Below, one piece after another: positions 2,298-62,870 of a DNA stretch of 64,000 nt (positions are counted from its first letter, which is position 1; every line of letters begins with the position of its first letter). The DNA is from Labia minor (taxonomy: Eukaryota; Arthropoda; Insecta; Dermaptera; Spongiphoridae). The stretch is taken from contig OY720350.1 in assembly GCA_963082975.1 (NCBI GenBank), forward strand, positions 45,896,734 to 45,960,733. The letters run 5' to 3'. The notes below the pieces were generated by a model, which saw only the letters and a list, made by a program, of their open reading frames with translations, was not told where the DNA came from and did not search any database. A program made the position numbers and the translations under genes.

Positions 2298-2867
2298 CTG
2301 GAGTGTCTCCACTCGACTACCTCGCAAATTTGAATGGAATTAACATATATTATATTTAAATTAAATTTAATTAATTAATTTATAAATTAAAATTAAAATT
2401 AAATAATATTTATTAAACCAGCGCGTTCCCCTCTTTGTTGATTTCACCACGTAACGTGCTGGCGCGAGATTGCCGGTCAACGTATTAAAAAATTAATTCC
2501 GGTACTTTCAGCGGTTCAATCAAGCTGAAATTTTAGATATAGCAGTTTTATACAATTTTTAATCATGTGAAAACTATCAAACATATATCTTTATTTTTAC
2601 GGTCAGTTTAGAGGAAAAAAAATGAAAACATGGGGCAGGTAATGACCCACTTCCGGATGAGCTACATAAAAAACTACGAATTTTGAATAATGCCCATGTA
2701 CCAAATTTCATGATTCTAGCTCAAACCGTTTTTGCGTAATCTTATCTACACACACACAAACATTTTTGTCAACTTTAGTGAAAATGACTCAGGGACCTTC
2801 AAAACGTATAAAATCATCAAAATCTCGAAATTGAAAATTTTTGTGATCACAATACTACTATAGTAAA
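2298..2867 (-). mobile_element. HINE-like family A, copy 1
   Basis: Family A read 5'->3' (here on the minus strand) should start ACTATCTCGCC beside T. It runs through a TGTCTGTG-type microsatellite and a GATGAAATTTGGTAC-like box to GCGAGATAGT, then the hairpin GTGGAGACACTCCAG. The 3' end is clear at 2298. The 5' hairpin is eroded (tactactatagt near 2855). The layout matches Helentron-associated non-autonomous elements. There is no coding capacity. Confidence 0.65.
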
Positions 2868-3361
2868 AAAAACAACTTCATTGAACTTATCTAAACTCGT
2901 TTTCTAAAGTCATGGACCATGCCTCATATCTATTGAATATAATTTGAAATTTTTATTAATCTTTGAAAATACTTGAAATAATTATTTTTTAATTAATATA
3001 ATTCTTATCCACTTCTGGAAATTTGTAAATATTTGATAAACACAATTTTTGAATAGTTTTATAAAGATTAAATCAATTGGAATTTACATAAAGTTCCCAC
3101 TTGAATGCATGAAAATGAAGAAGGGATCTATCATTTCATCCAAACTAGACGCACATTGACAATCTATATAGTTCCGTGGGGGTGGCATCCCCCTCAGGGA
3201 GTATTTCGGTGATCGACTTGCTATGATTAATGGACTGAATGTTCCCCTGTAATCAACATCCTTGCCATCGCGATTTAACCATTTATCTATTTACGATTAC
3301 GTGGCCAACCAACAAAAGATTCATGAGGAAATTTTTCCCCAATGAAAAGTCTTTTAAACAT

Positions 3362-3398
<37 letters not shown>

Positions 3399-3613
3399 CA
3401 GTGTTGAAATTAATGGTACAGAAAAATTGTCTTCTTTTTTTTTGATGCAATCAACTGATATGAATCTGTCCAGTGACCTTTATAGAGTATATAATGCGTT
3501 CAATTTGAGTTTTATTCAAGCATGATCAATCTCTCGTTTCTAATAAATTACTCATTCAATAAAATATGAAAAAGTTATCTCATTTGTATGAATCAAAATA
3601 TTTAAACATCTAT

Positions 3614-3662
<49 letters not shown>

Positions 3663-3731
3663 GTAAATATAGATTATAGTATTTTAAAAATTTATTAGTT
3701 AAAAATCCAATGTAAAATCTTTTTCTTATGG
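2868..3731. other. AT-rich stretch with two (TA)n microsatellites
   Basis: No gene is seen. (TA)n runs lie at about 3362-3397 and 3618-3656. A short frame between 3239 and 3445 reads through one of them and is not credible. A GC-richer patch near 3175-3260 includes a small gggggtggcatccccc palindrome. Confidence 0.6.
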
Positions 3732-4324
3732 TTTTACTATCTCGCCAGAGATAATTGCGATCACGAAAATTTTCGATTTTGAGATTTTGATGTATTTATA
3801 CGTTTTGAAGGTTCCTGAATCATTTTCACTAAGGTTGAGAAAAATGTTTATCTGTGTTTGTGTAGATAAGTTTACGCAAAAACGGTTTGAGCTAGAATCA
3901 TGAAATTTGGTACATGGGCATTATTCAAAATTCTTAGTTTTTTTATCAACTTTTGAGAAATGTAGCTCAACCGGAAGAGGGTCATTACCTATAACATTTT
4001 GATTTTTTTCTTCTAAAGTGACCGTAAAAATAAAGATATATGTTTGATAATTTTTCACATAATTAATGATTGTATAAAACTGCTATATATAGAATTTCTG
4101 CTTGATTAAATCGCTGAAAGTATCAGAATTCATTTTTTAACACTGCAAATCTCACGCGCCAACACATGACGTGGTGCCATCAAAGAGCCAAACATGCGCA
4201 TGGTTTTAAAATATTATTTATTAATTTTAATTTATAATTTATAATTAATTAAATTTAATTTAAATTAATATATGTTATTTAATCCAATTCAAATTTGAGA
4301 GATAGTAGAGTAGAGACACTCCAG
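3732..4324 (+). mobile_element. HINE-like family A, copy 2
   Basis: This is a near-complete copy in plus orientation. The 5' end is ACTATCTCGCC with the hairpin partner GAGATA. The core box GAAATTTGGTACATGGG lies near 3903. The 3' end shows an eroded terminal repeat (gagatagtagagt) and the hairpin GTAGAGACACTCCAG, followed by a T run. The 5' flank is also T-rich. Confidence 0.7.
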
Positions 4325-4533
4325 ATTTTTTTTTATTTTATTTTGGAATAACCATATAAATTTTACAAAAATTGTTTAATTAATTTGTATAAGTTTATTA
4401 TACATGTATATGGGTCTTTAAAAAAAAATTTTCATTTTTCTTTTAATTGCTTCAGTAAATTTCCTCTCTTTATATCAATTTTCAAAAAATAATTCTCTTC
4501 TTGTATTTTAGATAAAACTTACGATTGTATATA
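4325..4533. other. Short AT-rich spacer
   Basis: T-rich spacer with nothing recognisable. Confidence 0.5.
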
Positions 4534-4915: not shown

Positions 4916-6090
4916 ATTTCTCAAAACTATTATGTAAATATGTAAATAATTTAAACTCATGTTAATCCATAATTAATATGTTGTTAATATAATAAATTAA
5001 ATAAATAAATTAGTAGAGATAATTTCATAAAGCTATTATATTTGTTTTTGTTTCCTTTGTTATTCTGCTTTTGGAATAAATTAATCTGCTTATAAATTAT
5101 AATAATTATTTAATTAATAATATAAAATATAAATTATTTTTTAATAATTTGTTTTTTTTAATCCTAGTTTAAAAAAAATGAAGAATTATAAACATTAAAC
5201 GTGGCAATTGAAATTTATTTTTTGATATCATTATTTAATTAAAAATTCATTAAATAAAAAAAAAATGTTAATTATTGTTTTGATAAGTTATAGCTCATAA
5301 GATCCGGTTACTTAGTAAAAAAAATCTTTATATATGATTCTATTAAACTCTACTTCTATCTATTCATATTTAATTTGAAGTTTAAGTTCCACGTTTTATG
5401 GACGCATAATTTCGCCAAAATAAATAGTTCCAAGTTCTTGTACTAAACTCAGTCCAATTCTGATGATAACGCTGACGAAAAGCAGAATTTATTATCCATT
5501 AAAATACTTTTCTCTCTTGCAGGATGGAATCTAATTAACAGTTTTGACCATGCATTGGCTCTTTTCAAATCCATTTAAATTCTTTCTGGCTTAAATACAT
5601 TCACAAAGACATTCTAATTTACTAAAAAAAAAAAATTCCATTTGGAGTTAAAGTCATCTTTTTTTTTTTTGTAACTCACTCGGCACTTTTTTTTATAATT
5701 TGTGCCTAATATACATGAGAGGCTAACGAACAAAAATAATTAATATTATTCTATTTAAAATAAAAATATATACTGATGAGAGAATTATTCAATTTTTTTT
5801 TTTATATTATTAATTAAATGATTAAGTTCAACAATTATTTTCACTTTATAACCTTTTAATTTTCGAAATTTTATAAAAATCTACTGAATTAATGATAAAT
5901 CAAAACAAAAAATCAAGCCTTTATTAGAACAGAGTTCCTTTTCTTATATAGTTTTCTGTATAATGAATAATAAAATAATATGTGTATTAAATTAATTATA
6001 AAAGAGTTTAAAATTAAGTAATAATTTTTTACCTGAAAAAAGATTAAACCAAATTATTATATATTTGAATTTAATAGTTTTTTGTTTTTT
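4916..6090. other. AT-rich non-coding stretch
   Basis: No gene and no repeat shared with the rest of the window was seen. Several homopolymer T and A runs occur. Confidence 0.5.
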
Positions 6091-6474
6091 GTAATTATTC
6101 AAATAAACGCATTTTCGTGGATATAGATTGGTTCCTTTTGCAATTCCAAATAAACTTTTCTTATGATATTTTTTCGGGCCTCTTCTAGTTTAGGAGATAA
6201 AACTTATTAAAATTTGCATATATTATAAATCCATTGATATTCTATTTAGCTAGCATGTTTTATCCATTTGGCTACCAGAGGACGCACTTTCGGTTTTTAT
6301 AAGTTCGGTTTGGATAATAAGTGAATTAGCCAATAAAGCATCACTTACACATTTCTACGTTCATAACTAATCTGTCAAACTTAAAAAATCTTTATTTGAA
6401 TAATTTTTATCTCGTAAACTAAAAGAGGCCCGAAAAATTTCCTCTTTGCAAAATGCGTTTACTTGAATAATTAC
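6091..6474. mobile_element. Foldback element with long inverted repeats, copy 1
   Basis: The outer ends are GTAATTATTCAAATAAACGC and, in reverse, GTAATTATTCAAGTAAACGC. Inner inverted arms contain TTTCGGGCCTCTT and its partner AAGAGGCCCGAAA. The flanks tgtttttt and cgtttttt form an 8-bp duplication with one mismatch. The interior shares GTTTGACAGAT and GTTATGAACGT with the element at 27508-28037. The superfamily cannot be decided from the ends. Confidence 0.7.
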
Positions 6475-8374: not shown

Positions 8375-9010
8375 TTTTTACTGACCGACGATAGTAAGGG
8401 AGGTATTGTTTTCACACCAAATTTCACATGTGGAGATTTTTACATATCTCCACGAATCATGCATTTTCTAAACAGAAAAAAGTATTTTTAGCATGATGTC
8501 TGTCCGTCTGTCCGTCCGTCCGTATAGATGTGTACAGCCTGAACGGCTCAACCGATTTTGATGAAATTTGGTATATTTACTTAATGCATCAGTGGGAAGA
8601 ATTGATCAACTTTTGGTGCAATTCCGGAAACCGGAAGTGGTAGTATTAGCGATCGACGATAGGAAGGAAAGGGTTATTTTCACACCAAAGGAGATTTTTT
8701 TATATATCACCACGAATCATGCACTTTGTATTGGTTTTATCCTCGAGAAAAATCATATTTATTAGTTTTTTCTTGATTTAAAATTATATGACGTCATCCA
8801 GCCATTCATGACGTCACAGCCTGGTCTTGCATATATATTATAAATAAAATAAAATTAATAATGTTTATATTTATTATTTATGTATCCATATCTGTTTTTT
8901 ATTACATTAATAGATATATTAAAATTATTTGAAATTGTTTCTGTAGCTGGAAATTAATTTATTTCAAACAGTCGGTCGGGTCGGACCTGGCCACAGGTCA
9001 ACTTATTTTT
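8375..9010 (+). mobile_element. HINE-like family B, copy 1
   Basis: It starts beside T with ACTGACCGACG. Two direct modules of about 85 bp follow (8378-8475 and 8647-8730; both run from CGACGATAG through CACACCAAA to CACGAATCATGCA). Between them lie a TGTCTGTCCGTC microsatellite and the box GATGAAATTTGGTATA. Near the 3' end comes the inverted terminal motif (GTCGGTCGGGT), then the hairpin GACCTG-GCCA-CAGGTC and AAC before a T run. It has no coding capacity; an open frame over it is incidental. Confidence 0.7.
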
Positions 9011-10070: not shown

Positions 10071-10079
10071 ATAAAAAGG

Positions 10080-10870: not shown

Positions 10871-11093
10871 ATAAACTATTTAATTATAAAACCAAGTGAA
10901 CAGGTAACAAAAAAGGTTCCCTTGATTTTATAAATATTAAATACAAATACTTATACAATTAATACAAAGAAATTAATAATATTTACAAACATCAAAACTA
11001 TGTTTCAAAAGGGGGGAAATTCAAAAATTTATTTCTACTAATTAAAAAATGCAAGGCGCTTGCGCCGACATTATTGTTAAAAAATAAAAAATT

Positions 11094-11710
11094 CGGGAGT
11101 GTCCTCCCCTAGACTTTCACGCATATAAATAGGTAATTAGGTTATTATTATTATTATGTTTTAACAACAATAAAAATAAACAAACTAATTAATTTAAATT
11201 ACAAAGTAAAATGGTTTAACACTATTATATATATTTATAATTTACACCTAACGCTACTTGTATAGGTAAAATGTCACTTCCGGTAGTCAGATCATGATGA
11301 AATTTGGTATCTGAATTTTTTTCATATTTTTAAATCTATATACAAAATAGGAAGCAAATATCTCGAAGCAAACTGGTACTTTACTTGAAAGGTAAACGCA
11401 ACCAGTGTAGGTAAAGTACCACTTTCGGTTAACCGATTTTGACGAAATTTTGATAGAAATCTACAAACTGTGAATAATATCGGTGTACCAAATTTCGAAG
11501 TCCTAGCTTGATTAGTTTTAGAGGAAATTTGCTCACTGACAAACATTACATACATCCATACATCCATACATACACACACACAGACATAATTCGAAAAATG
11601 GTATTTTCCGACTCAGGGAGGTCTAAAACGTCAAGATCTATCGAAATCTCGAAGTCGAAATTTTTGACGATTCCAATACTTCCCTTATACGAAGTATGCG
11701 GAAAAGTAAA
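11094..11710 (-). mobile_element. HINE-like family F
   Basis: On the minus strand it starts beside T with ACTTTTCCGC and the stem ATACTTC/GAAGTAT. It passes a TGTCTGTGTG microsatellite and the box GAAATTTGGTACACC, followed by ATTATTCACAG. It ends with the inverted motif GCGTGAAAGT and the hairpin GGGAG-GACA-CTCCC beside T. Long stretches align with family A, but the terminal repeats and hairpins have different bases that still pair. A second, oppositely oriented core box lies near 11291. Confidence 0.6.
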
Positions 11711-12610: not shown

Positions 12611-12641
12611 AAAGAAAAAAAATTGAAATCTTGTCTCTTAT

Positions 12642-14924: not shown

Positions 14925-15953
14925 ATATAATATTTTCATAAATTAAAAACCTTTTTAATTTTTTGTATTTTTTTTTTTTTTTTTTCAAGTCAAGGATTAT
15001 TTATTATAAATCCAATTCTACATGTATTAAGTTTCCCCGGCTTGAAAATTATTCTGTTGGTTTTAATAAATAAACGTGTTAGAAAATTAAAGTTGATATA
15101 AATGGCGGGTATAATTATCTATTCGAAGGATATAACAGGGTTAACAAGATTACAATTCATTTGATTTATAAAAAAAAAATTATATTGATTTATTATATAA
15201 ATATTAAATTTCGACTTATTAGTAACTATACATTATTTTTTTTTTTTAAATGATTTGATAATGAAATTAAATCAATGAATTTTTGAAAGACTCAGTAAAT
15301 ATTTCTATAAAGGTTAAAGATTTTATTATACAAAACGAATGTTGGTGGGATTTCCAATTTAAGTTTTAAAATATTCGAATAATTAATCATCTTAATTAGG
15401 AATTCAACTCTTGTTTATAAATTATTCATTCTATGTAGGTATTTGAATCAATGAATAAATAAAAATAGAATTTAAAGCTTTCAAATTACACCACACAAAT
15501 AAGATTTTATTTATTAAAATAGAAAAAAAAATATATTAATCAAATCAGAATTAGTTAGTTGTGGGTTTTTAATCTTTCTCGGTGGACGGGAAGAGAGTGA
15601 AATTTAATATTCTATTTAATAAAAAAGATTTATATTGAATTATATTGTAATGTAATAAATAAAATATTTGCATTGTTCATTTACTTTTCAGTTATTGATA
15701 TTGTTATTTAATTGTGGAAAAAATTGAATGGTATTAAAAGGTTAACTACCACTGCTCTAAATAGATTACTTAAAATTCGATTTAAAAAAATTTTAAAAAA
15801 TAATTTAAATGTTTTGCCATCGATTGGATTAAAAATATCCAGTTTACAAAATTTCGATAAAATATATGTCTAATATTCAAATGGAGATATTCACCCAAAA
15901 TAATACTTGAAAAAGTTCACCCATCAAATTTTGTGTTTGTAAGTTAAAAAAAG
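14925..15953. other. AT-rich non-coding stretch
   Basis: Contains a run of about 22 T near 14969-14985 and otherwise nothing recognisable. Confidence 0.5.
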
Positions 15954-16412
15954 CTGGAGTGTCTGCACTCGACTATCTCGCAATTTGAATTGGATTAAAT
16001 AACATATATTATATTTAAATTAAATTTAATTAATTAAATTATAAATTAAAATTAATAAATAATATTTATTAAACCAGCGCATGTTTGGCTCTCTGTTGAT
16101 TGCACCACGTCATGTGTTGGCGCGTGATTTGTAGTGATAAAAAATTAATTCCGGTACTTTTAGCTATTCAATCAAGCTGAAATTCTATATATAGCAGTTT
16201 TATACAATTATTAATCATGTGAAAAATTATCAAACATATATTTTTATTTTTACGGTCACTTTAGAGGAAAAAAAATCAAAACGTTGTAGGTAATGACCCT
16301 CTTCCGGTTGAGCTACATTTCTCAAAAGTTGATAGAAAACTATGAATTTTGAATAATGCCCATGTACCAAATTTCATCATTCTAGCTCAAACAGTTTTTG
16401 CGTAATCTTGGT

Positions 16413-16444
<32 letters not shown>

Positions 16445-16516
16445 GACATTTTTCTCAACCTTAGTGAACCTTCAACCTTTCGTGATCGCAATACTATCTC
16501 TGGTGAGATAGTAAAA
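15954..16516 (-). mobile_element. HINE-like family A, copy 3
   Basis: The 3' hairpin end lies at 15954 (slightly eroded) and the 5' hairpin GAGATAGTAAAA at 16505-16514. It has a (CA)n run of about 20 bases at 16424-16443. Part of the segment between the microsatellite and the 5' end is missing relative to copy 6. Confidence 0.7.
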
Positions 16517-23455: not shown

Positions 23456-23459
23456 TAAG

Positions 23460-23600: not shown

Positions 23601-23639
23601 TTAATAATTATCTAATTTTATTTTAATAACTCAAAATAT

Positions 23640-29648: not shown

Positions 29649-30360
29649 TCTATATATATTTAGGATTTTTTTGAAATTCACACCATATATAATATCTATA
29701 AAGATAAATCGATCTGTATTGGTTTCAGCCACGGGAAAATCATCTTCATTAGTTTTTTCTTAATTTACACAAATGACGTCATCCATATTTTCCTCTTATT
29801 TGTCTTGCATACATTGTAAGTTTAAATTATATTTCTGTGTTTCTCGATCTTCAAAATATATTATACATATTATTTATTATATTTTAAAAACAATTTCTTT
29901 TTTTAATTAATATTCATTTAAAATGATAATTAAAGAATATCTTATTCAAAATAAATAGGATCTAATAATATTAAATAGAAATAGAAAACTATAAATAAAT
30001 ATTTTTTTAAATCCTGTTTCTTTAAAATATTTGAAATTTTTTCACTTAATTTTTTAATTATTAGTTAAAATTTATTTTATTAATTTGTTATTATACTTTT
30101 TAAATAATTTTTTTTTCTCTAAAATATTTGAAATTTTTTAATCTGTTTTGTCGTTTAATTTTTTGTTAATTCTTATAAATTTTTATTAGTTAATTTTATT
30201 ATTTATTATTTTTATTTATTATTATTGAGGACCCCAAGTTCCATTCATTTAATCAGATTGATGCAATGATGTAATATTTAATAATTGTAATAATTAATTA
30301 AATAATTGTATATCAATACTTTTTAAAGGGTCGAGCGAAGCTCGGTGTTCCAGGTACTAA
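29649..30360 (+). mobile_element. Non-autonomous Helitron H2, copy 1
   Basis: It starts TCTATATATATTTAGG. It ends with a short GC hairpin (GAGCGAAGCTC), then GGTGTTCCAGGTACTAA, i.e. a CTRR end as in canonical Helitrons. A second copy lies at 63356-63865 on the minus strand. The first 180 bp share the GTATTGGTTTCAGCC to TTAGTTTTTTCTTAATTTA module and TGACGTCATCCA with family B. No Rep/helicase coding is present. Confidence 0.65.
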
Positions 30361-31420
30361 GTTGAGTAAAATATTAAATACTCTCATCCTAAAATAATCG
30401 TTATAATTGTGAACTAATAACCCCTTCTTTAACCCTAAATTTTATTGATTTGTTTTCTTCAATTACTAAGTTTAAGTAGAGAATATTGTGAATCAATTTT
30501 TTTTTACCCCCAAACTATAAGATCAGAGTATGTATTATAACCTACTAATTTATAATAATTAATTTAAGAAATAAAAAAAAAATTTATAATTTGATAAAAA
30601 TCAATATTTTTATAAGATTTTAATAAAAATTAAATGGATCTGTTCCAGATTTTATCTATCTAGTATCTTTTTGTTCACTATGTTTCCGTGACTATAACAG
30701 TTTATCTTTGAGACAGAATAAATATACGGGCGTCTGAACAAAACTTTGTCTCTTGTACTAAATATCAAGTGTAACGTATAAATTCTTTTAATCTCAATGA
30801 CCAGGAGTAAGCTTTTTATTTACTGTTCATTCTTGAAAGCACTCAGTTAGCTTAAAATAAAAAATAAAAAAAAGAAAAGCCTATCATTCTTTTAATAATA
30901 AATAAATCAATGATAGCATCGTAGTTGAGGGATTAGAAAGTTTATTTATTTAGTTTTTTTTTTTTGAATTAGTAATTTTATTTTATTTTTGAAAATATTA
31001 ATAAAAAAACTTTAAAATATAATATCATGAATTAATTCTGGTACTACACTTTAACTCCTTTTAATGGCTTCTGAGGACAAGCATTGGGTTTATACCCTCT
31101 ACTTAGGGAGTATTTAATATATTATAATTTATGTAGTAATTTGTAAATTGATGAAATTTCTTTAATGGGTTGGGTTTATTCGTTGCCATGGATATTGGAA
31201 TCGATAGAGGTAATTATGAAATCTCACCTACTGGTAAATTATTCCAAATTTTCTTCTATATTATTCTATTTTACATTATTTAAATTTTTTATTTATACAT
31301 ATTTTACAGAAAAATATTTTTAAAATCAATACTACTTTTCCGAGTCAGTCTCTGTGACGCTATCATACTGAAAATAGGAATGTTGAATTAAAATGAAATT
31401 AATATATGGATATTTAATTT
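30361..31420. other. AT-rich non-coding stretch
   Basis: No gene seen. Confidence 0.5.
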
Positions 31421-36175: not shown

Positions 36176-37012
36176 TTTTTAATATCTCGCCAGAGATAGT
36201 ATTGCGATCACGAAAATTTTCGATGTTGAGAATTTGATGTTTTTATACGTTTTGAAGGTCCCTGAGCCATTTTCACTATGGTTGAAAAAATATCTGTGTG
36301 TATATAGATAAGATTGCGCAAAATTGGTTTAAGCTAGAATAATGAAATTTGGTTCACGGGCATTATTCAAAATTCGTAGTTTTCTATCAACTTTTGAGAA
36401 TTGTAGCTTATTCGCAAGAGGACCATTACCACCACGTTTTCATTTTTTTCCCCACTAAACTGACTGTAAAAATAAAGATATATGTTTGATAGTTTTTCAT
36501 ATTATTAAAAATTGTATAAAAGGTTGAGAAAAATGTCTGTGTGTGTGTGTGTATGTGTATGTAACCAAGATTACGCAAAAATGGTTTGAGCTAGAATGAT
36601 GAAATTTGGTACATGGGCATTATTCAAAATTCATATTTTTCCATCAACTTTTGAGAAATGTAGCTCAACTTGAAGAGGGTCATTACCTACAACGTTTTGA
36701 TTTGTTTTCCTCTAAAGTGACCGTAAAAAAAAGATATATGTTTGATAGTTTTTCTCATGATTAAAAATTGTATAAAACTGCTATCTATAGAATTTCAGCT
36801 TGTAAAGTACCAGAATTAATTTTTTAACACTTCAAATCTCACGCGCCAACACGTGACGTGGTGCCATCAAAAAGAGCCAAACATGCGCTGGTTTAATAAA
36901 TTTTATTTATTAATTTTAATTTATAATTTAATTAATTAAATTTAATTTAAATATAATATATGTTATTTAATCCAATTCAAATTTGCGAGATAGTCGAGTG
37001 GAGACACTCCAG
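36176..37012 (+). mobile_element. HINE-like family A, copy 4 (chimeric)
   Basis: It starts with the 5' hairpin ATATCTCGCCAGAGATAGT. The first 345 bp carry the variant forms TTGCGCAAAATTGG and GAGGACCATTACC seen in copy 7. At about 36523 it jumps back to the GGTTGAGAAAAATGTCTGTG segment and repeats the middle of the element in the commoner form (GAGGGTCATTACC). It ends with GGAGACACTCCAG. Two subfamilies are thus joined in one copy. Confidence 0.75.
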
Positions 37013-37651
37013 ATTTTTCTAATATAAAACTGTTATTATTGATATAAGAATATAAGTATGTATATAATTAGAAAGCATTTTCACCATCACATTTTTTTAT
37101 TTAAATTGATTGATATTCGTATTTATGGTTTAATGAATAAATTTTATCTAGAAATATTGCATAGTTAAGATTCTACGAAACGTATTATTAGGGTTAAATA
37201 ATCTGATTCATTAATCAACGTCTGCATGCGGGATGAGAAGCGTTGGGGGTGTAGAAGAAAAAGTGATAGGCATGAGAATGTCTGCTTAATGGCAATTCAT
37301 TCAAAATAAATCCAGTTTCATGTAATTTACAAATCTCTATTAAATAAGTGGGAAGTTTGTAAAAGTTGGCATGTGTGGGTCAACCATGAACCACCCCTAG
37401 TATATATTAAGTGTTCCCCAAAATATTTGCATTTGAAACTGATTCAACTTACAAGGGAAAATAAAGTGGTAACCCACGGGAAATGGTTATCATAAATATT
37501 TCATTTTACTGATGAATATACATAAATGTGTTACGTTATATTTAATTATTATTTTATTTTAAGTGAAATTTAAAGTAAGGAAGCGTTTTCTCTAAATTTA
37601 ATTTACGATAACTAATTATTTATATCGATGTTATATTTGAGAAATAAAAAT
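37013..37651. other. AT-rich non-coding stretch
   Basis: No gene seen. Confidence 0.5.
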
Positions 37652-44940: not shown

Positions 44941-45556
44941 TTTACTATCTCGCCAAAATTTTTGATGTTGAGATTTTGATGTTTTTATACGTTTTGAAGG
45001 TTCCTGAATCATTTTCACTAAGGTTGAGAAAAATGTTTGTGTGTGTGTATATGTGTGTGTGTATGTATGTGTGCATGTGTGTGTGTATGTATGTAACCAA
45101 GATTATGCAAAAACGGTTTGAGCTAGAATGATGAAATTTGGTACATGGGCATTATTCAAAATTCATAGTTTTCTATCAACTTTTGAGAAATGTAGCTCAA
45201 CCGGAAGAGGGACATTACCTACAACGTTTTGAATTTTTTTCTTCTAAAGTGACCGTAAAAATAAAGATATATGTTTGATAATTTTTCACATGATTAATAA
45301 TTGTATAAAACTGCTATATATAAAATTTCAGCTTGATGGAATCGCTGAAAGTACCAGAATTAATTTTTTAACACTGCAAATTTCACGCGCCAACACCTGA
45401 CGTGGTGCCATCAACAAAGAGCCAAACATGCGCTGGTTTAATAAATATTATTTATTAATTTTAATTTATAATTTAATTAATTTAATTTCATTTAAATTAA
45501 TATATGTTATTTAATCCAATTCAAATTTGCGAGATAGTCGAGTGGAGACACTCCAG
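44941..45556 (+). mobile_element. HINE-like family A, copy 5
   Basis: The 5' ACTATCTCGCCA is present, but the other half of its hairpin and the following segment are missing. The microsatellite is a mixed TGTGTGTA tract. The box GATGAAATTTGGTACATGGG lies at 45130-45149. The 3' end GCGAGATAGTCGAGTGG plus AGACACTCCAG is complete. Its 3' flank (45557-45620) recurs next to copy 8. Confidence 0.75.
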
Positions 45557-45620
45557 CTTTTTTTTAGTAAACTGAGTGAAATCATTCATTAAAAGCCTAA
45601 TTTATTAAAACATTTAATTC

Positions 45621-46457
45621 TTCTCAAAATAATTGAAAGTAATTTATTGTAATCTGTTATATTCAACAATTGATTAATATCCTACTATTAATTTAGTATC
45701 AATTGATTCCAATGACTATCAATATATATGTATATACCCGTATATATGCAATTAATTCAACATTGCATTCATTTTATTGACATATGTTTGAGTTTAAGTT
45801 AACTGTGTATATATAAATGTATAATCCATGACAAAAATAAATTTCTAACATAACAGTTTCCAACCCTTTTGAGTAATAGTATCCCTTTTTGTCTGGTTCG
45901 TGGTTATAGAGAAGAGTATTGTTTTATAACATGTTTTTTATTATATCATAAAAAAAGGGAGAGAAGACAAGTAGAATGAGAGGGGCTTGTGTAAGAGAAT
46001 ATACTATATATGTATATTTGAATATACATTTAAATAGAATTTGATAAAAGTTCTTTTTGTGTATTATGAGAGGTTAAACAGCCTCAGTGAACAACAACAG
46101 AACAAAAGGAAGGGACTATTTTTCTTTGCAAATTTTATGATATATAAAATTGGTTTAGATGAAAGATTTATCTTTCAAAGATTAGAGATGTGTTTGTAAA
46201 TTTGTTTTAGGCCTTTCAATCTTCTAAAAAGATGTCACTTTTCACTGAGATATTTTTTTATTCAGATTATAAGATTTCATGATTAAAAATAATTTGAAAT
46301 TTTTTTTTTTTTTGAGTTTATCTTAATCTTAGTTTGAATCTATTTAAAGATATACTTGTTATTGTAATAAATTGAAATTAGAAAATTTAGAAGAGAATTA
46401 CATATTAGGTGAAGCTTAGATCTGATGATTAATAAATAATTGAAACATAAAATAAAA
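45621..46457. other. AT-rich non-coding stretch
   Basis: No gene seen. Confidence 0.5.
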
Positions 46458-47033
46458 TAAGTTGACCTGTGGCTAGGTCCGAACCGACCTACGGTTTGAA
46501 GTAAATTAATTTCCAGCTACAGAAACAATTTCAAATAATTTTCATATATCTATTAATTCAATAAAAGACAGATATGGATACATAAATAATAAATATAAAC
46601 ATTTTTAATTTTATTTTATTTATAATATATATGCAAGACCAGGCTGTGACGTCATGAATGGCTGGATGACGTCATATAATTTTAAATCAAGAAAAAACTA
46701 AAAAAGATGATTTTACCCGTGGATAAAACCAATATTCGTGGAGATATGTAAAAAATATCTTCATGTGAAATTTGGCGTGAAAATAAATCCTTCCTTTCGT
46801 CGATCGCTAATACTACCACTTCCAGTTGCCGGATTTGATTAATTCATCATACTGATGCATTAAGTAAATATACCAAATTTCATCAAAATCCGTTGAGCCG
46901 TTCAAGCTGTACACATCTATACGAACGGACGGACAGACATCATGCTAAAAATACTTTTTTCTGTTAAAAATCTCCTCATGTGAAATTTGGTGTGAAAACA
47001 ATACCTCCCTTACTATCGTCGGTCGGTAAAAAT
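46458..47033 (-). mobile_element. HINE-like family B, copy 2
   Basis: A full-length copy on the minus strand. The 5' ACCGACCGACGATAG is at 47033, with both roughly 85-bp modules. TGACGTCATCCAGCCATTCA and ATGACGTCACAGCC form a paired CRE-like palindrome region. The inverted motif CGTCGGTCGGTTCGGACC and the hairpin (GACCTAGCCACAGGTC) end it at 46458. Confidence 0.72.
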
Positions 47034-47853: not shown

Positions 47854-49982
47854 ATGGCCGGCTTGATAGGCGTTGTCCTTGCTTGTTGTTTTAGAGCAGC
47901 TCTATTCACAGATTTTTACACTTTTTCCAGACTATCTTTTTTGGAAGCAAGGAAGGTTATTTATTACAGGTTATACTATATATATTATATATATATTAGA
48001 TCAGTAAAAGTAAAAATAGTTAATATTTTTAATGTCTAGAGTTAAAAAAAATAAATATAACTTTGAACCCCTGGAAAATTTTACTAATTTAATTCATTTT
48101 GTCAAAAATGTCAATTTTGGAACCATTTTGATTTTCAAAAGTTTTTTCTCAGTAACGAAAAGTCTTGTCATCAAATGATCTCATAATTTTATAAATCATT
48201 TAATCTTTTTTTAATTTTTTGATATTTATTTACTTTATTTTTTTACATTCCAAATACAATCAAATTTATTAATCAACTTGGAAATTATAATTTAGAATTC
48301 TATGCATTTACGTTTTCTAAACAAAAAAAAATTTATTTCACGCCCCTTTGGCCTATTTTAAATATAATTAATCTTGTAGTTGTAGTGCGTATAACCGTTT
48401 GCATTTGCGTGTTAAATACAACCTTATAATAGAAAGATTATCTTTCTTAATTTGGAATGATAAAAGCAAAAGCTTACCCCTTTTAGTGCATTGGACTTAT
48501 TAATAGACTTAAAAGCTGATCAATTTGATATTTATCTATCACGAGTAATGGATTGATTGATAAAAAAATGAAATTGAAACGAAAATGTATTTAATTATGT
48601 GTATAATATGGCGAAATATACACAAAAAAAAATTCTGTCGTTTTATCTACCCTTCTAACAAGTGAATTCTTTGGGGTAGTATTGTCTTTGGGGCAGCTAT
48701 CCTTCCAGTCCTCATGCTCATAATATTTAAATAATAACTGTATGAGATTATTCAAAGTACACCAAAAAAAAACAACAACATAATCTCACTTACTTAAACC
48801 GGAAATTTATTCCAAATGACAAAGCACTCGTGTAGAATGCTACCCATTTATATTTTCGTTAAAAATGTATAAGCCACTTAGAATATAACAGCGAGTTGAT
48901 GGGTACCGGAAACTAATATTAAATTATAAATGAAATTTTATTATTTAAAGAAATTATACGATAAATCATATTCTCAAAAATAAACGATTATGAGAAATTG
49001 ATTTTGAAGATCGATAAGTCCTAATCATATTCTCGCCAGGTAATACATCATTTTAAGTATAAAATTTAATCATTTAAATTTTAAATTTTCTTGTTTATAC
49101 CTAAAGAGTAAATTTCTCACTCTTTTTTTGATTATCCTTAACTTTAAAATTTTAACTATTAAAATGTTTTATTTCTCATATATAAGCATTAAGATAAATC
49201 GCTCTCAAAAAATAAAAATAAATAAATAAACGTATATCTACTTAGAATTCCAGTTTTATAGATTTATTTATAGATTCTAAGGATGAACTTCATTAAATAA
49301 AATAAATATAGAAATCATGAATTGCTGTTTGAAGAGATTTATTTATTCTTTGTTTAATGGTGCACTTACTTTTAATTACCAGCATTTACAACTCAAGAAA
49401 TTTGAATTTTCTAAAGGAAAATATAAATAATTTGCATTAAGTACATCATGAATGTAAATGTTTGAAGAACTAATATTTTTATTGAATTCGCCTGGAAGGT
49501 AGATTTCCAGCATTGCTGTGCCCATCCCACTTGTGCTTTCAATTTTATTACATATCTACAATATTTTGTCATCTACCAATCAAATTTAACAAAAATTCAT
49601 ATTTAGATAATAAAGAAAATTTTAAAATCAAATAATCAATCTATTGACTCAATATATTATAATAAGAAATGATGCTTTTTAAATAATTAAAATCAATTTA
49701 CATTTAATTTAAAATAAATTTTAACTTGAAATTTAATAAATTCAATCAAAATTAAAAAATGTTGATAAAATGAATTAATTAATTAATCTATATATCTATT
49801 AATGTGATAAAAGAAAATATATATGTTTTAACTATTTGATAAATTATTATCTCATATATTTAATTATTATTAATTGAAAATGTTATATTGAAGATGAAAT
49901 TTCAAACTCAAGCAAGTTCAGGTATATTTAAATTTAATCTATGTTATTTAATTGAAAATTTAATATATATATAAGAAATTAG
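47854..49982. other. Long AT-rich non-coding stretch
   Basis: More than 2 kb without gene, shared repeat or GC island beyond short patches near 47860-47930 and 48660-48720. Confidence 0.5.
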
Positions 49983-50595
49983 CTGGAGTGTCTCCACTCG
50001 ACTATCTCGCAATTTGAATTGGATTAAATAACATAATATATTATATTTCAATTAAATTGAATTAATTATAAATTATAAATAATAAATATTAAACCAGCGC
50101 ATGTTTGGTTTTTTATTGATGGCACCACGTCACGTGTTGGCGCGTGATTGCCAGTCAACGTGTTAAAAAATTAATTCTGGTACTTTCAGCGATTCAATCA
50201 AGCTGAAATTCTATATATAGCAGTTTTATACAATTATTAATCATGTGAAAAATTATCAAACATATATCTTTATTTTTACGGTCACTTTAGAGGAAAAAAA
50301 ATCAAAACATTGTAGGTAATGACCCTCTTCCGGTTGAGCTACATTTCTCAAAATTTGATAGAAAACTATGAATTTTGAATAATGCTCATGTACCAAATTG
50401 CATCATTCTAGCTCAAACCGTTTTTGCGTAATCTTGCCTACATACATATATACACACACACACACACACAGACAGACATTTTTCTCAACCTTAGTGAAAA
50501 TGATTCAGGAACCTTTAAAACGTATAAAAACATCAAAATCTCAACATCGAAAATTTTCGTGATCGCAATACTATCTCTGGCGAGATAGTAAAAAG
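49983..50595 (-). mobile_element. HINE-like family A, copy 6 (best-preserved)
   Basis: All parts are intact on the minus strand. The 5' hairpin is ACTATCTC-GCCA-GAGATAGT. CGATCACGAAAATTTTCGA and a TGTCTGTCTGTGTG microsatellite follow, then the core box (ATGCAATTTGGTACATG here). The subterminal GCGAGATAGT and the hairpin GTGGAGACACTCCAG end it. The middle also has ACGTGACGTGGTGCC (CRE/E-box-like). Confidence 0.8.
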
Positions 50596-51910: not shown

Positions 51911-52130
51911 CCATCTTATTATAATTTAACGAGAAAATAAGCTTCCATCTATTTGATGTTATTGGTTTAATGAAATATTAATAGGCAACGTTCATTTGGT
52001 GTAAGGAATAGCAAGGTTTATAATCGATAAATCAAAAATTCTTAAGAAGCAATGGAAAATTAGTTAATCACAGGAGAGTGGGTTGTCAACTTCTTAAGAA
52101 TCTTCCTTTAATTGATATTAAAGTAAAAAA
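51911..52130. other. AT-rich spacer
   Basis: Nothing recognisable. Confidence 0.4.
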
Positions 52131-52832
52131 ATATGAGCTGTGGCCAGGCACAGAACCGACCGACGATTTGAATTAAATTAATTTCCAAACAATATTATAT
52201 ATATATTTTTTTTTGGCTTTTTCGGAATATATCTCCATTTAGCCAGCTTTCTCAGATTTGTTTATTATTTTTATTTATATTTATATTTTTATTTTTATTT
52301 TTATTTATATATCGATGCACTCGGCAAGGTTTGAACCCTCGAACTCGAGTCGGCCGACCTGTTACTATAACCTAGCGGCTAAGCTCCCGGTATATATAAA
52401 GTATAAAAAAAAATTTAAAACTTGGATTAAAATGACTAAATTATATTATCTTGGTTGTTATTTTTAGTTTAATTACTCAATTATTAATTACTACTATATT
52501 TTAAGTGAAATATTTTGGGACAATGAATATAAAATTAATACTTTGTAAACAACCACTTCCGATTTCCGGATATACATCAAAAGTTGATGCATTCATGTAA
52601 CAGATGCATTAACTAAATATACCAAATTTTATCAAAATCCATTGAGCAGTTCAAGCTATGCACGTCTATTCGGACATACAATGGACAGACGGACGGACGG
52701 ACAGATATCATGCTAAAAATATTTTTTTCTGTTAACAAATTGGATGATTTGTGAAGATATGTAAAAAAACCTCCTTATGTGAAATTTGGTGTGAAAACAA
52801 TACTTCCCTTAATATCGTCGGTCGGTAAAAAT
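52131..52832 (-). mobile_element. HINE-like family B, copy 3, interrupted by a SINE
   Basis: The 3' end (hairpin and inverted motif, eroded) is at 52131-52165, and the 5' end ACCGACCGACGATAT is near 52832. Between about 52205 and 52545 unrelated DNA with a tRNA-like head replaces part of the element. The middle with GGACGGACGGACAGA is conserved. Confidence 0.65.
52300..52400 (-). mobile_element. tRNA-like SINE head inside family B copy 3
   Basis: The minus strand reads GGGAGCTTAGCCGCTAGG (A-box region) and, about 30 bp on, GAGGGTTCAAACCTTG (B-box). It is too diverged in its acceptor arm for a tRNA gene. It follows (TTTTTA)n on the plus side, compatible with a tailed insertion. Confidence 0.5.
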
Positions 52833-56327: not shown

Positions 56328-57776
56328 TAATATAATATAGAAAAGAAAAATAATTTTAATTGGATCTTTTTAAATTAAACTGATTAATAATATCATTGTC
56401 AATTAATATCTAATTTAAAACATTACAATGAATCAAGATGGATTTGAAAAAGATATATTTATATCAATATTATTATTATTAGTAATATTATTAATATTAT
56501 TATTATGTATTATGTGTCTTTTTAAAGCAAATCTATTACTTTAATTGATATTCATTTAAAATGATAATATTAATTAATGAATATCTTATTTCTCTTAAAA
56601 AAATAAAAATAATATTATATAAAAATTAAATGAATTAAAATGCAAACTATTAAATAATATATTAAATAATATTAAATAAATATATATATTATATTTTTTT
56701 TAATAATTTCTTTTTTGTGAATTGCTAGAATTAATTTTAATATTTTTAGATTAATATAAAATTGTTTAAGACAGGTTCTTTGATCTGAAGAAGTGTAATT
56801 GGATTAAAAATAAAAATACTTTCTTTTCAAAAAAAAATAGAATCTTTTATTATTTTGAAATATTATTAAGAACAAGATTAAGTTGTTATTTAAAAAATTT
56901 AAATCTAACTATTAATGTTTTTTTTTTTTTAATTTCAGAAATAAAGAATTGTATCTTGAGGGCAATGTTTTTAAAAATAATGACCTTTATGAAAAAAAGT
57001 GAAAAATTAAAATCTCATTTTCTTTATATTTTTAATGTAAAAAAAAATGATATCCTTTTTATAGAATCTTTCCAAAATATAATTCAATTTTTGGAACAAA
57101 GAATTTGTCTCTAATTTCATTTGCCCTTACAAATTAATTTCTAACAAAAACATACATCCGTTGACCTATGTAGGAAAGCTAATCTATAAGGCTCAGATGT
57201 CCCTATTTAATCCATAATTTAAATTTAACTAAGATGCATAATTAATTACTTCGATAGAAGGAAACTTGACTCTCTTTCTTCTCTCTCTCTGCCTCCCTCT
57301 TTACCTCTTTCACTCTTTACCTGTATGATCCTTCTCAGGATATCCGTTAAAGGAATCGCTTGGCAACTTTACCATGTAGAAAATACGTTTTAACTTTGAT
57401 AAATTACAAGCGACAGGTAACTTGTGGAAAATTATTAAGAAACAATGACGATAAACCTGAACAAAAACAACTGAGAAAGATTTAACAAATTACAAATATC
57501 ATTTGCAAGCAAATAACTTATAAACATAATTATAAATAATATTCCAGATCTTAAAATCTATAAGTGTATTTTCATTAGTATAAAAAATAAAAAAAAGAGG
57601 TAAAACGTAATTAAATGTATCATAATAACATCAAAGTTTTTAAGAATTTTTTTTTTTTTAATAATATAAAATATTTTAATGAATATGTAGAAAAAAGGCA
57701 TGCTATTTTTATTCATTTAATTTACAATAAAAAAAAATAGAAAAATATATGCGAGGCTAACTGACTAGAAAAAAAT
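56328..57776. other. AT-rich non-coding stretch
   Basis: No gene. A pyrimidine-rich CTCTCTTTCTTCTCTCTCTC tract lies near 57270-57320. Confidence 0.5.
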
Positions 57777-58348
57777 CTGGAGTGTCTCCACTCGAATATC
57801 TCGCAAATTTGAATTGAATTAATTAACATATATTATATTTATATTAAATTTAAATTAATTAAATTATAAATTAAAATTAATAAATAATATTTATTAAAAC
57901 AGCGCCTGTTTGGTTCTTTGTTGATGGCACCACGTCACGTGTTAGCGCGTGAGATTTGCAGTGTTAAAAAATTAATTCTGGTACTTTCAGCGATTCAAAC
58001 AAGCTGAAATTCTATATATAGGAGTTTTATACAATTTTTAATAATATGAAAAACTATCAAACATATATCTTTATTTTTACAGTCAGTTTAGTGGGGAAAA
58101 AAATGAAAACGTGGTGGTAATGGTCCTCTTGCGAATAAGCTACAATTCTCAAAAGTTGATAGAAAACTACGAATTTTGAATAATGCCCGTGAACCAAATT
58201 TCATTATTCTAGCTTAAACCAATTTTGCGCAATCTTATCTATATACACACAAAATGGCCCAGGGACCTTCAAAACGTATAAAAACATCAAAATCTCGACA
58301 TCGAAAATTTTCGTGATCGCAATACTATCTCTGGCGAGATGGTAAAAA
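57777..58348 (-). mobile_element. HINE-like family A, copy 7 (variant subfamily)
   Basis: Complete at both ends on the minus strand. It shares diagnostic variants with the first half of copy 4 (TTGCGCAAAATTGG, GAGGACCATTACC) and lacks most of the (CA)n tract. Confidence 0.75.
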
Positions 58349-58759: not shown

Positions 58760-59140
58760 GAATAGCCTTTCGGTAGTATGCATCAATAAATTCTTAAAAT
58801 ATATCTTTATATTTCGTCTTCTAAATTTTATTACTTTTAAAATGTAATTTTTTATAAGAATGTATTTAATGTGTTTATTTAAAAAATAATTTGGTGTATA
58901 TTCTTGCTTATAATTATTTACCTGAATGCTTCTGTAAATTTACTTTCGTTTTAAATTTCCTTTTACATTCTAATATTTTTTTTTATCAGTGTAACTCAAT
59001 AAATGGATAGTTAATTTTTTTTTAGTGTAAATATCTTCATACAATGATTACATTTAAGGGGATTTTTAGCAGAATGATTCAACAAATGTTTTTTTCGAAG
59101 TTGTTTTTTGAATAATTCTTTTCATTTTCTTAGAATGATT
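58760..59140 (-). pseudogene. Decayed C2H2 fingers downstream of the zinc-finger exon
   Basis: On the minus strand, out of frame and with stops, fragments such as LNHSAKNPLKCNHCMKIF, KRKFKTKVNLQKHSG and THLIHSYKK keep the spacing of C2H2 fingers and their linkers. The original array thus ran at least two or three fingers further than the present stop at 59145. Confidence 0.65.
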
Positions 59141-59144
59141 ATTT

Positions 59145-60103
59145 TTAAATGTTATTTTCGCTTGAATGAATCCGTAAATGTCGATTTAAAGCCCCTCTTT
59201 GATTAAATCTCTTCTTACAATGGTTACATTGAAACGGTTTCTCACCAGAATGAAGCAATAAATGGGTAGATAAATATTCTTTTCTAGAAAATGTCTTCTT
59301 ACAATGATCACAGTTATATTTTTTTTCACCAGAATGAATTACTAGATGTCTATTTAAATGTTCTTTTCTTTTAAATGTTTTTTTACAATGATTACATTTA
59401 AATGATTCTGCAGCAGAATGAATTAATAGATGTCTACTTAAATGTTCTTTTTGATTAAATATTTTCTTACATTGGTCGCATTCAAATTGTTTTGAACCAG
59501 AATGAGTCGAAATATGTCTATTTAAATTTTCTTTTCGATTAAATGTCTTCTTACAATAATTACATTCAAAGGATGTTTCACTTTTAGGAGTTTGTAAATT
59601 TTTATCTAAATTTTTTATTTTATCAAATTTCTTCTTACTAGAATTAGATTTCCAAGGTTTGTCAGTTTCATGAATTAATAAATGTTTACGTAAATGTTCT
59701 TTTTGATTAAATTTAATCTTACAATAATTACACTTATATGGTTTTTCACCTGAATGTATCAGTGAATGTCTAATTAAATGATCCTTTCTTGTAAATGTTT
59801 TCTTACAATCATTACATTCTATTAGTTTTTCAGCTGAATGAATCATTAAATGTCTAGTTAACTCTATTTTTTTATTAAATATTTTCTTACAATGTTTGCA
59901 TTTAAATTCTAAACATTTATCATTTTTTTTAGTTATTTTAATTTTCTTAGAATCCTCAATATTCTCACAATTGGCATTAAAGAAATTCAATTTAGATTTT
60001 AATATACAAGATATTTTCAAATGTATACATTTCTTTTCATGTTTCAATAAAAAATATTCACTGATAAAATTAGTCAAGCAATAAGAACAAGTGGCTAGAG
60101 GAC
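59145..60103 (-). CDS. C2H2 zinc-finger protein, last exon
   Basis: A nuclear DNA-binding protein, probably a sequence-specific regulator. The exon holds eight good C2H2 fingers of the pattern F/Y-x-C-x2-C-KKxF-x5-L-x2-H-x3-H with TGEKP-like linkers (HSGEKPYKC, HSGEKPFQC). One degenerate unit between fingers 3 and 4 has lost its Cys and His (KPWKSNSSKKKF). The fingers resemble each other closely (RKEHLNRHL, QKEHLSRHL), so the array grew by tandem duplication. The frame is open above the TTG at 60077 as GPLATCSYCLTNFISEYFLL. This contains a further C-x2-C ... H pair and begins right after TTTCTTTTTTAG, a good splice acceptor. The start therefore lies in an upstream exon not identified here. 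The target is unknown. Confidence 0.85.
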
Positions 60104-61029
60104 CTAAAAAAGAAATTTCAATTAAATAATTAATAATTAAATTATTAGTAAAATTATGTTTTCATTTAATTTATTATAATTATAAATATAAGCTTTAGAA
60201 TTTTATTTTTATTCTATTCGTGTTTGTATATAATTATAATCTTAATGAAAACTTTGGAAATTTTATTTTATTTTGAATTCTAAATTTAGAATGAAGTAAA
60301 AAATATACCTATATATATTGGATATTTATTATTTTTTGGCATTTTTAGGTTTATTAGACACAAATAATCACGTATAGAAAAAACAAATAAAATACTATTT
60401 TTTTTTTCTTAGTAGAGCAGCCAACTGAAATAAATAAAATTTATTTTATTTTTTCAAATAAACTACCTGACAACTCCCGCGTTTATTTAATTACTATCAC
60501 TATCTTATTAAATATACATGTCTTCAAGTGTGTTTTAAAATAATAAAAATATAATAATTGATTCTTAAAATAAACATTTTTTGGATTGATTTTGATTTTG
60601 GATGGATAAAATTACGGATTTTTAAATATACTTCTATCCTATATATACTTTTAAATATACCTATATATATGCTCGAATATAGCTAATTTTATAAAGAAAT
60701 TATAAGAGAAACCTGTAATATTCTTAAAACAATATTCTTAGTTGATAAAGCAACAATAAGTAGTAGTAATTTGATGATGATGGCTCAAGATAGAGCAAGA
60801 TGGAAGATTCTTATTGATTTAGGGAAGTACTTACTTATTCACTAATGAAATTAAGATTGATACATAGATTGAAACTATATGAACATTTAATGGATTAATA
60901 AATATTTTTTTTAGTATAAAATTATGACATGCCGTTTGCTGGCCTATTTCCATGATATAATGTAATATGTAATTATTATAAATATTATTTTAATATGAAA
61001 AAGTTTTTATTGAAATAAAATAAAAAATA
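60104..61029. other. AT-rich stretch, presumably intron or upstream of the zinc-finger gene
   Basis: No exon could be picked out. It contains TA-rich and T-rich runs only. Confidence 0.4.
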
Positions 61030-61630
61030 ATAAGATGACCTGTGGCCAGGTCCGAACCGACCGACGGTTTGAAATCAATTAATTTCCAGCTACAGAAACA
61101 ATTTCAAATAATTTTAATATTAATGTAATAAAAAACAGATATGGATAGAGCATAAATATTTTTAATTTTATTTTATTTATAATATATATGTAAGACCAGG
61201 ACCACCATGAATGACTGGATGACGTCATATAATTTTAAATTAAGAACAAACTAATAAAGATGATTTTTCTCGAGAATAAAACCAATACAAACTGCATGAT
61301 TCTTGGTGATATGTAAAAAATCTCCTCATGTGAAATTTGGTATGAAAATAACCCTTCCCTTCCTATCGTCGATCGCTAATACTACCACTTCCAGTTTCCA
61401 GATTTGCATCAATTCATCATACTGATGCATTAAGTAAATATACCAAATTTCATCAAAATCCGTTGAGTCGTTCAAGCTGTACACATCTATACGGACGGAC
61501 GGTCATCATGCTAAAAATACTTTTTTCTGTTAAGAAAATGCAAGATTCGTGGAGATATGTAAAAAAATCTCCTCATGTGAAATTTGGTGTGAAAACAATA
61601 CCTCCCTTTCTATCGTCTGTCGATAAAAAA
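61030..61630 (-). mobile_element. HINE-like family B, copy 4
   Basis: The 3' end has the perfect hairpin GACCTG-GCCA-CAGGTC and the inverted CGTCGGTCGGTTCGG. Both modules, each with CTCCTCATGTGAAATTTGGT, are present. The 5' motif is slightly eroded (ATCGACAGACGATAG). The microsatellite is shortened to GGACGGACGG. Confidence 0.72.
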
Positions 61631-61739
61631 TAATTAATTAATAGAATTGCTTACTTTTTTAAACAATTAAAGAGTAAATCAATAATATATTCAATTTAAA
61701 ACACTTGAAAGATGAATTATTTTTAATTCTTCATGAAAG

Positions 61740-62062
61740 TGGATAGTAATAAATAGTCTGTCAAGGCAGAAGCCACCCCGCATAAATAATATGTACTAAG
61801 TGTATTCAACCATTAGTTAAAAATCTCGAGCCCTCTTGTCTTTTCATGCTTGAACAACAGTAAAAAGAGGGAGATGAGAAAGTTTGGACACTGGTTGAAG
61901 TTATACAAGAGGGTGGGGAAATTGTTCTGCAACAGAGTTAATTTGAAAATAAAGTCGGCACTTAATTTAAACGATGACCAGACGAAAATATTAACTAAAG
62001 TACAATATTTCATTGATATATATATATATCAAATGTCAATTAAATCTAATGATTTTTGGTGA
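61740..62062 (+). other. GC-richer island with one open frame
   Basis: A frame across 61850-62062 has basic residues (MRKFGHWLKLYKRVGKLF) but opens at TTG. No family is recognised. It could be an exon, since splice-like signals cannot be judged by eye. Confidence 0.22.
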
Positions 62063-62227
62063 CTTTCTAAATAAATCAAAGGAACAATTTCAATAAATAT
62101 ATCAAATTGTATTGATTCCTTTGATGTAATCTCGAAATGGAATACTAAGCTCCTTGATCAAGGTAACCTAATATCCATTTCATATATGCTTGCTTATATA
62201 CCAGACGAATATCATGTTAGTCACTAA

Positions 62228-62422
62228 TTAATACCCAATTATATATAATGAAATAGAATCATTAAGTATAAATATTACTTATTCATTTTTGTTTGAAGAA
62301 TATTAAACATTATTATTATTTTATTAGAAATTTGAATTAACTTAGTTAATTTTTTTTTTACAATTCAATAGATTTTATACTGGCTTTAAATAATTGTAAA
62401 ATAAATAAATAATTATATAAGA
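62228..62422. repeat. Direct repeat of about 190 bp, left copy, flanking family A copy 8
   Basis: Matches 62871-63060 with about seven substitutions and one small length difference. Begins TTAATACCCAATTATATATA. Confidence 0.9.
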
Positions 62423-62439
62423 TAATATTTATTAAACCA

Positions 62440-62870
62440 GAATTAAATGTTTTAATAAATTAGGCTTTTAATGAATGATTTCACTCAGTTTACTAAAAAA
62501 AAAAGCTGGAGTGTCTCCACACGACTATCTCGCAAATTTGAATTGGATTAAATAACATATATTAATTTAAATTAAATTAAATTAATTAAATTATAAATTA
62601 AAATTAATAAATAATATTTATTAAACCAGATCTTTGTTGATGGCACCACGTCACGTGTTGGCGCGTGAGATTTGCAGTGTTAAAAAATTAATTCTGGTAC
62701 TTTCAGCGATTCAATCAAGCTGAAATTCTATATATAGCAGTTTTATACAATTTTTAATTATGCGAAAAATTATCAAACATTTATCTTTATTTTTACGGTC
62801 ACTTTAGAAGAAAAAAATCAAAACGTTGTAGGTAATGACCCTCTTCCGGTTGAGCTACATTTCTCAAAAG
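62440..62870 (-). mobile_element. HINE-like family A, copy 8 (3' part) with extra 3' flank
   Basis: Only the 3' half of the element is present (62870 down to the hairpin at 62506). The next 66 bp (62440-62505) match the 3' flank of copy 5 (45557-45620) almost perfectly. This looks like transposition that read past the normal end. TTTGGCTCTT before GTTGATGG is missing. Confidence 0.75.

Follow-up and report, generated by a model that had tools for sequence, protein, structure and literature searches.

Three families of short repeats, A, B and F, in a 64,000-nucleotide stretch of DNA from the dermapteran Labia minor are very probably non-autonomous Helentrons (HINEs, of the Helitron2/Helentron branch) that arose from one ancestral 5′ module and whose ends have since drifted, and family A would be mobilized in trans by one of the genome's own Helentrons. 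The stretch, referred to below as the window, corresponds to C9:45896734-45960733 (contig OY720350.1, here C9) in an assembly of 604 Mb in 71 contigs, and contains eight A copies, four B copies and a single F copy (Table 1). The three families share a common anatomy and homologous sequence, they insert into T-runs, an empty site is available, and the genome holds a Helentron with matching ends.

The first line of evidence is the autonomous partner of family A. A PF14214 profile search of the genome returned 104 matches, from which four stretches (L030-L033) were read first. The element at L032 has an open frame of 2181 codons; the element has the exact A 5′ end at its start and then approximately 746 bp of A sequence with an internal duplication, and at its 3′ end 44 of 44 bases are identical to the window copy at 49976-50589. 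A second locus, L042, is identical to this Helentron over the last 181 bases (181/181) and ends in the same A 3′ end, beyond which the host DNA is different; the A 3′ end therefore belongs to the Helentron. Because the L032 element is bounded by exact A ends and L042 has the same 3′ end, family A is, as judged from sequence, the HINE of this 12.2-kb Helentron. Between the A copies and the Helentron 5′ module, substitutions amount to 3.8 to 13.3% in 22 alignment rows with 250 or more columns, not counting the self row and one F row; this similarity fits the description of HINEs as deletion derivatives of Helentrons (PMC4067079). A search with the C-terminal part of the Helentron protein gave 74 matches and, among the 85 of 1062 candidates that were scored, revealed two further places at 76-97% identity, both broken: L042 and the decayed L037. 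Locus L038, considered as another 3′ end, proved instead to contain the leader and frame of the second A Helentron copy. By eye, the leaders of the A Helentron (L032, reverse strand, ~240-1060) and of the L030 element (L035, reverse strand, ~1440-2000) share sequence, as though one of them had acquired a piece of the other.

The L032 protein contains Helitron_like_N (84.6 bits), PIF1 (109.8 bits) and DUF6570 domains, and its Rep motif reads EFQMRGSPHEH, so that RGSPHxH and the PIF1 helicase are both present. The serine between G and P of the Rep motif is given as diagnostic of Helentrons (PMC4067079); for this reason, together with the PIF1 helicase, the L032 element is assigned to the Helentrons. 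No OTU protease match was found in this protein at E 0.01. The last 200 residues (L032:1595-2200, reverse strand) match Peptidase_C48 with E 0.0007 and 19.9 bits, against a cut-off of 20.7, and the PDB entry of SENP8 with E 0.017; a plausible H-D-Q-C order can be traced by eye. This putative Ulp1-like tail, a weak match, is the least ordinary part of the A Helentron. OTU proteases and RPA are named for Helentrons in PMC4067079, whereas the L032 frame ends in the Ulp1-like match. OTU has been reported for Helitrons, and Ulp1 for elements of the Ginger and Mutator types (PMC2836005), and none of the papers listed in the one open-licence library searched names both Helentron and Ulp1.

The second line of evidence is the common layout. 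In all three families, an oligo-T run is followed by a 5′ subterminal repeat, a partial inverted repeat with ATTG, a GT- or GTCC-rich microsatellite and a GAAATTTGGTA box; in the 3′ half, the 5′ repeat recurs in inverted form near the end, followed by a hairpin and a T-rich tail. Nearly all 5′ ends begin with AC, and the tails are mostly CTTATT, CTAATT or ATTTT. The box has 11 exact matches in the window, against 0.14 expected: it is exact in five of the eight A copies, three of the four B copies and the F copy, with one additional reverse-orientation match in a B copy and one in the F copy. The copies at 49976-50589, 57771-58343 and 52130-52826 have a mutated box, and that at 62501-62879 has lost it. 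The sequence ACTATCTCGC occurs exactly eight times in the window, against a shuffled mean of 0.04. Both ends lie within the mismatch limits in six of eight A copies and three of four B copies of the window. A mechanical scan for the whole blueprint, which covered the window and loci L009-L043 (~336 kb), returned 14 rows, each of which belonged to one of the three families; a single control, shuffled within 50-base blocks, gave no rows. This agrees with the first-pass annotation, which had proposed a single blueprint for these copies.

The families extend well beyond the window. All three recur in twenty 10-kb stretches evenly spaced on contig C1, with full F elements in two of the 20. The exact A decamer occurs 24,314 and 24,272 times genome-wide, against 107 and 96 for the reversed pattern, and a search of the genome with the F 5′ part gave 564 candidates, with 88-100% identity among the 40 scored. 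The A copy at 44944-45560 of the window had no match in phage records, and a 26-base A 3′ end had none in viral contigs. At L022:8354-9414, a chimeric HINE was observed, in which a B element without both B ends forms the middle of an F element.

The ends were compared in 24 full-length copies (A 16, B 5 and F 3) from the window and other loci of the genome, some of which had been chosen for holding the exact A decamer; the both-ends search had given 31 rows, from which four internal B modules and repeat readings of the same copy were removed. The ends fall in the same place across these copies. The majority 5′ and 3′ subterminal inverted repeats (subTIRs) are complementary at 10 of 10 positions in A, 11 of 11 in B and 10 of 10 in F, which bears out the earlier statement that the starting repeat recurs inverted near the end; pairing is perfect in 7/16 individual A copies, 1/5 B copies and 1/3 F copies. 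The ends of the window F copy, ACTTTTCCGC and GCGTGAAAGT, are point-mutated, and the majority F ends obtained with two copies of the C1 sample (L018 and L022), ACTTTCCCGC and GCGGGAAAGT, are fully complementary. By eye, the majority subTIRs of A and F differ at two of 10 positions, both substitutions having counterparts in the inverted repeat and the 3′ subTIR, and the F inverted repeat is one base shorter than that of A. The hairpins of A and F, also compared by eye, are nearly identical, one compensated pair apart, while the B hairpin is wholly different. The DNA fold energy of the 3′ end was reached by 9 (A), 8 (F) and 0 (B) of 200 shuffles, and that of the 5′ end by 1 (A), 1 (F) and 172 (B). 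By eye, the A 3′ ends seem to exist in two forms, AATTGCGAG with CTTATT or CTAATT tails and AATTTGCGAG with ATTTTT tails, although exceptions exist; the Helentron 3′ end appears to have the AATTGCGAG form.

The third line of evidence is common descent. The families were initially described as looking unrelated, and this impression has to be revised. When each family was represented by a single window copy and the initial 420 bases were aligned locally, the scores were 282 for A-F, 171.5 for F-B and 150.5 for A-B (z 19.1, 9.7 and 6.6, respectively), whereas the best of 200 dinucleotide shuffles per pair reached 128.5, 112 and 127.5. Since each real score exceeds all shuffles of its pair, A, B and F are, on the strength of these alignments, diverged homologues. 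When only the box core is considered, the scores are conspicuous for A-F (z 13.1) and A-B (z 5.8); F-B, with z 2.9, falls below the best shuffle. This last value, and the fact that low-complexity, T-rich sequence inflates some matches, could be cited in favor of chance or convergence in unrelated AT-rich repeats. Given the 420-base scores and the empty shuffled control of the blueprint scan, we give such an explanation practically no credence.

The fourth line of evidence concerns the insertion sites. At least two Ts precede the 5′ end in 23 of the 24 copies (background 15%), and at least four in 20 (background 2.9%); the anticipated preference for T is thus borne out. Flank identity of at least 4 nt, pooled over the families, was found in 5/24 copies, compared with 3.8 for permuted flanks, so that target duplication is not detected beyond chance. 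The A copy at L014 resides in a repeat, an unoccupied relative of which, at 30274-30365 of the window, reads through the T-run (79 of 107 columns identical); it is the one full empty site, and it concerns A. A B copy without approximately its last 100 bases (L034, reverse strand, 3403-3967) is nested between the 5′ module and the open frame of Helentron A, and lies directly against a T-run; in two other copies of this leader repeat, the T-run continues without a break. Joined-flank queries (31 in total) spanned the junction in five cases within the sequence analyzed, two A and three B. Of the two A cases, L014 is convincing. The comparison of L025 with L029 as a second A empty site was AT-rich and unconvincing, and the three B matches looked like AT-rich chance, one of them being an internal module. 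Repeats of this kind were once filed as miniature inverted-repeat transposable elements of a cut-and-paste transposon with subterminal repeats, and A, B and F are indeed short, AT-rich and numerous, with inverted repeats near their ends. Nevertheless, their ends are asymmetric, target duplication does not exceed the permuted level, and a Rep-helicase element has the same ends; we consider this assignment very improbable.

It should be noted that several observations weigh against the Helentron interpretation. Exo_endo_phos_2 scored E 0.0013 in the full L032 protein, below the Pfam cut-off; the isolated piece, which lies in the expected place, gave E 0.00014 and 22.2 bits, against a cut-off of 27.4. 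The decayed copy at L037 has an A 3′ end with three mismatches, located ~2 kb downstream, and the bases preceding it resemble HINE-A as much as L032; this end may therefore be a HINE fragment, which weakens a first tally of three Helentrons ending in A. One of the flank matches is 9 nt long, though AT-rich, and because 5/24 copies show flank matches of at least 4 nt, a very short target duplication may be hidden in the T-run. Folding of the B 5′ end does not surpass that of its shuffles, leaving the idea of a B 5′ hairpin unsupported, and the best F 5′ fold is not the pairing of the subTIR with the inverted repeat. The A hairpin can be folded in two registers; for this reason, the idea of a GNNA loop common to the hairpins was dropped. 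Finally, the first-pass annotation described hairpins with different bases and intact pairing; as the hairpins of A and F are one compensated pair apart, the compared sequences make this description strong for B only.

The features expected of HINEs can be recognized as follows. The subTIRs are 10-11 bp long, slightly shorter than published lengths (12-15 bp; 11-12 in the oyster and 13 in DINE-1), and beyond the 3′ subTIR come a hairpin and a tail; a 3′ palindrome and, pooled over the families, insertion at T without target duplication are present; and ends in common with a Helentron of the same genome were found for A. The canonical Helitron features, i.e., 5′ TC, 3′ CTRR and insertion between A and T, are absent from A, B and F. 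The earlier identification of a Helentron/HINE layout is upheld by the T-run insertion, the empty site, the fixed ends and the Rep-helicase with the exact A end pair.

The partners of B and F are a separate question. Loci L030:4179-9533 and L031:4072-9333 (reverse strand) encode RGSPH-type Rep-helicases of 1785 and 1754 codons, in which no endonuclease match was found (Helitron2-like). L033, a broken relative, shares 50% identity with the A Helentron protein over 1409 columns; at C1:55797593, identity to this protein is 41% in the C-terminal part. The A, B and F ends gave only noise-level matches around L030 (with 2 kb upstream), L031 and L033 (with 3 kb upstream) and within ~2 kb downstream of the C-terminal matches L039, L040 and L041, and when six coding stretches were scanned for the blueprint with paired ends, the L032 element alone was returned. 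No B- or F-ended partner was present in the loci examined, a minority of the 104 PF14214 candidates; the search for an autonomous Rep-helicase that had been suggested thus succeeded for the A end pair and not for the other two. Among the 40 of 564 F candidates scored, the F place nearest to a PF14214 match lies 17 kb away.

The co-variation of the ends had been taken to imply either one transposase that recognizes structure or a different autonomous partner for each family. This alternative is settled for A, whose partner has A ends, and not for B and F. In our opinion, each family probably has its own sister Helentron, now rare or lost. Family A does have its own partner, and L033 and C1:55797593 are other Helentron-type loci of this genome; the noise-level matches around the loci named above and the distance of the nearest F place count against this explanation. 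It seems unlikely that all three families are moved by a single transposase that reads structure, namely the A Helentron, with ends free to drift provided that they still pair. The oligo-T start, the inverted repeat followed by ATTG, the hairpin and the CTTATT or ATTTT tails are common to A, B and F, no coding element with B or F ends was present in the loci examined, and the A Helentron lineage was detected at three places (76-100% identity; 85/1062 candidates scored), compared with tens of thousands of A ends. Nevertheless, the A 3′ end is preserved without change in both clear Helentron copies, which suggests sequence specificity, and the partner search covered a minority of the PF14214 matches. 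Moreover, families are grouped by at least 11 identical subTIR bases in PMC4067079, where HINE-partner identities of 84-99.9% (mite), over 95% (Culex) and 98% (Drosophila) are given. A variant in which one Helentron protein with a SUMO-protease-like (Ulp1-like) tail reads the structure rather than the sequence of the ends, and in this way keeps three co-varying families mobile, appears quite unlikely.

Under the preferred reading, i.e., HINEs with Helentron partners, a Rep/PIF1-helicase protein would recognize the A 5′ subTIR with its inverted repeat, and one strand would be copied by a rolling circle. Copying would stop at the A 3′ subTIR and hairpin, the latter presumably acting as the terminator, and the copy would be inserted into an oligo-T run without target duplication. 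The A Helentron would act in trans on family A; for B and F, the simplest reading would be the same mechanism with sister Helentrons.

Several other Rep-helicase loci were noted. The L030 type occurs at four places with identical PF14214 scores. Seven places, e.g., C9:43365333, C9:45506044 and C10:14925745, share the score of 195.7 bits and have 1652-codon open frames in five of the seven; this apparently recently active family seems to be another Helitron type. At C5:46739897-46792979, stop-bearing PF14214 fragments follow each other in steps of ~9.8 and 5.7 kb and look like tandem broken Helitrons. On the 25.6-kb contig C63 (L040), endonuclease relatives occur twice, at 5288-6172 and 23019-23903, 17.7 kb apart; this contig looks GC-richer than the rest and is possibly foreign or misassembled.

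The layout, the presence of several families per genome and the changing stems have already been published for other species; the members described here are new. The HINEs and Helentrons of Metaseiulus, Culex and Drosophila, as described by Thomas et al. (2014; PMC4067079), likewise have subTIRs, a palindromic or inverted-repeat-flanked 5′ end, a 3′ palindrome and a microsatellite; they insert among Ts without duplication, are deletion derivatives of a Rep/helicase/endonuclease element and form several families with different subTIRs per genome (seven in the mite). Their sequences differ from those of A, B and F, for which a partner is known in the case of A only. Drosophila DINE-1, according to PMC2374699, has 13-bp subTIRs, a partial inverted repeat beside the 5′ one, a GTCY-rich microsatellite, a conserved core, a 3′ stem-loop and a TT preference, as here; the DINE-1 stem changes between species, whereas here three families with different stems are found in one genome. 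In the account of PMC7492417, Cg_HINEs of the Pacific oyster show the same subTIR, inverted repeat, microsatellite, 3′ subTIR, palindrome and oligo-T targets, with 11 elements, partly related and partly unrelated, in one genome; they carry satellite-like tandem arrays, none of which was seen in A, B or F. The Helitron2-type elements of Fusarium reported in PMC5148889 also have asymmetric terminal inverted repeats, terminal hairpins in some subgroups and, in FoHeli1 and 2, a T-rich 3′ end, but they are fungal, and their sequences and insertion sites differ.

These homologous families, found in one genome with an open partner gene of known ends, form a natural series for studying what a Helentron transposase reads, with the mirrored A-F substitutions as an example. 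Structure and sequence reading by the transposase can now be tested directly in this genome.

Table 1. Positions of HINE copies and the empty site in the window, and of the autonomous Helentron on contig C1
Feature	Position	Strand	Remarks
HINE-A	2292..2860	-	5′ palindrome shortened; one change in 3′-end subTIR
HINE-A	3736..4334	+	both ends; 3′ end mutated
HINE-B	8380..9006	+	both ends
HINE-F	11088..11707	-	both ends; subTIRs point-mutated
HINE-A	15946..16512	-	both ends; internal deletion
Paralogous empty site	30274..30365	+	unoccupied relative of repeat hosting HINE-A at ~L014:5685-6285
HINE-A	36181..37018	+	A-A partial tandem: second partial A 5′ half joined inside
HINE-A	44944..45562	+	both ends
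HINE-B	46457..47027	-	both ends
HINE-A	49976..50589	-	both ends; 44 3′-end bases identical to autonomous Helentron 3′ end
HINE-B	52130..52826	-	3′ hairpin mutated
HINE-A	57771..58343	-	both ends
HINE-B	61030..61624	-	both ends
HINE-A	62501..62879	-	3′ part only; 5′ half lost
Helentron (L032)	C1:47874777 to 47862606	-	12.17 kb, bounded by exact A ends

The window also contains features outside these families. Another long repeat is present three times (12008-14037, 23817-25182 and 39759-41793), its copies being mostly 96-99% identical. By eye, a 619-codon open frame at 20595-22454 resembles a transposase of the BED/hAT type or a gene descended from such a transposase, and 59013-60077 (reverse strand) appears to hold a C2H2 zinc-finger array with an 84-bp period and a 310-codon open frame, a similar array being visible at L041.

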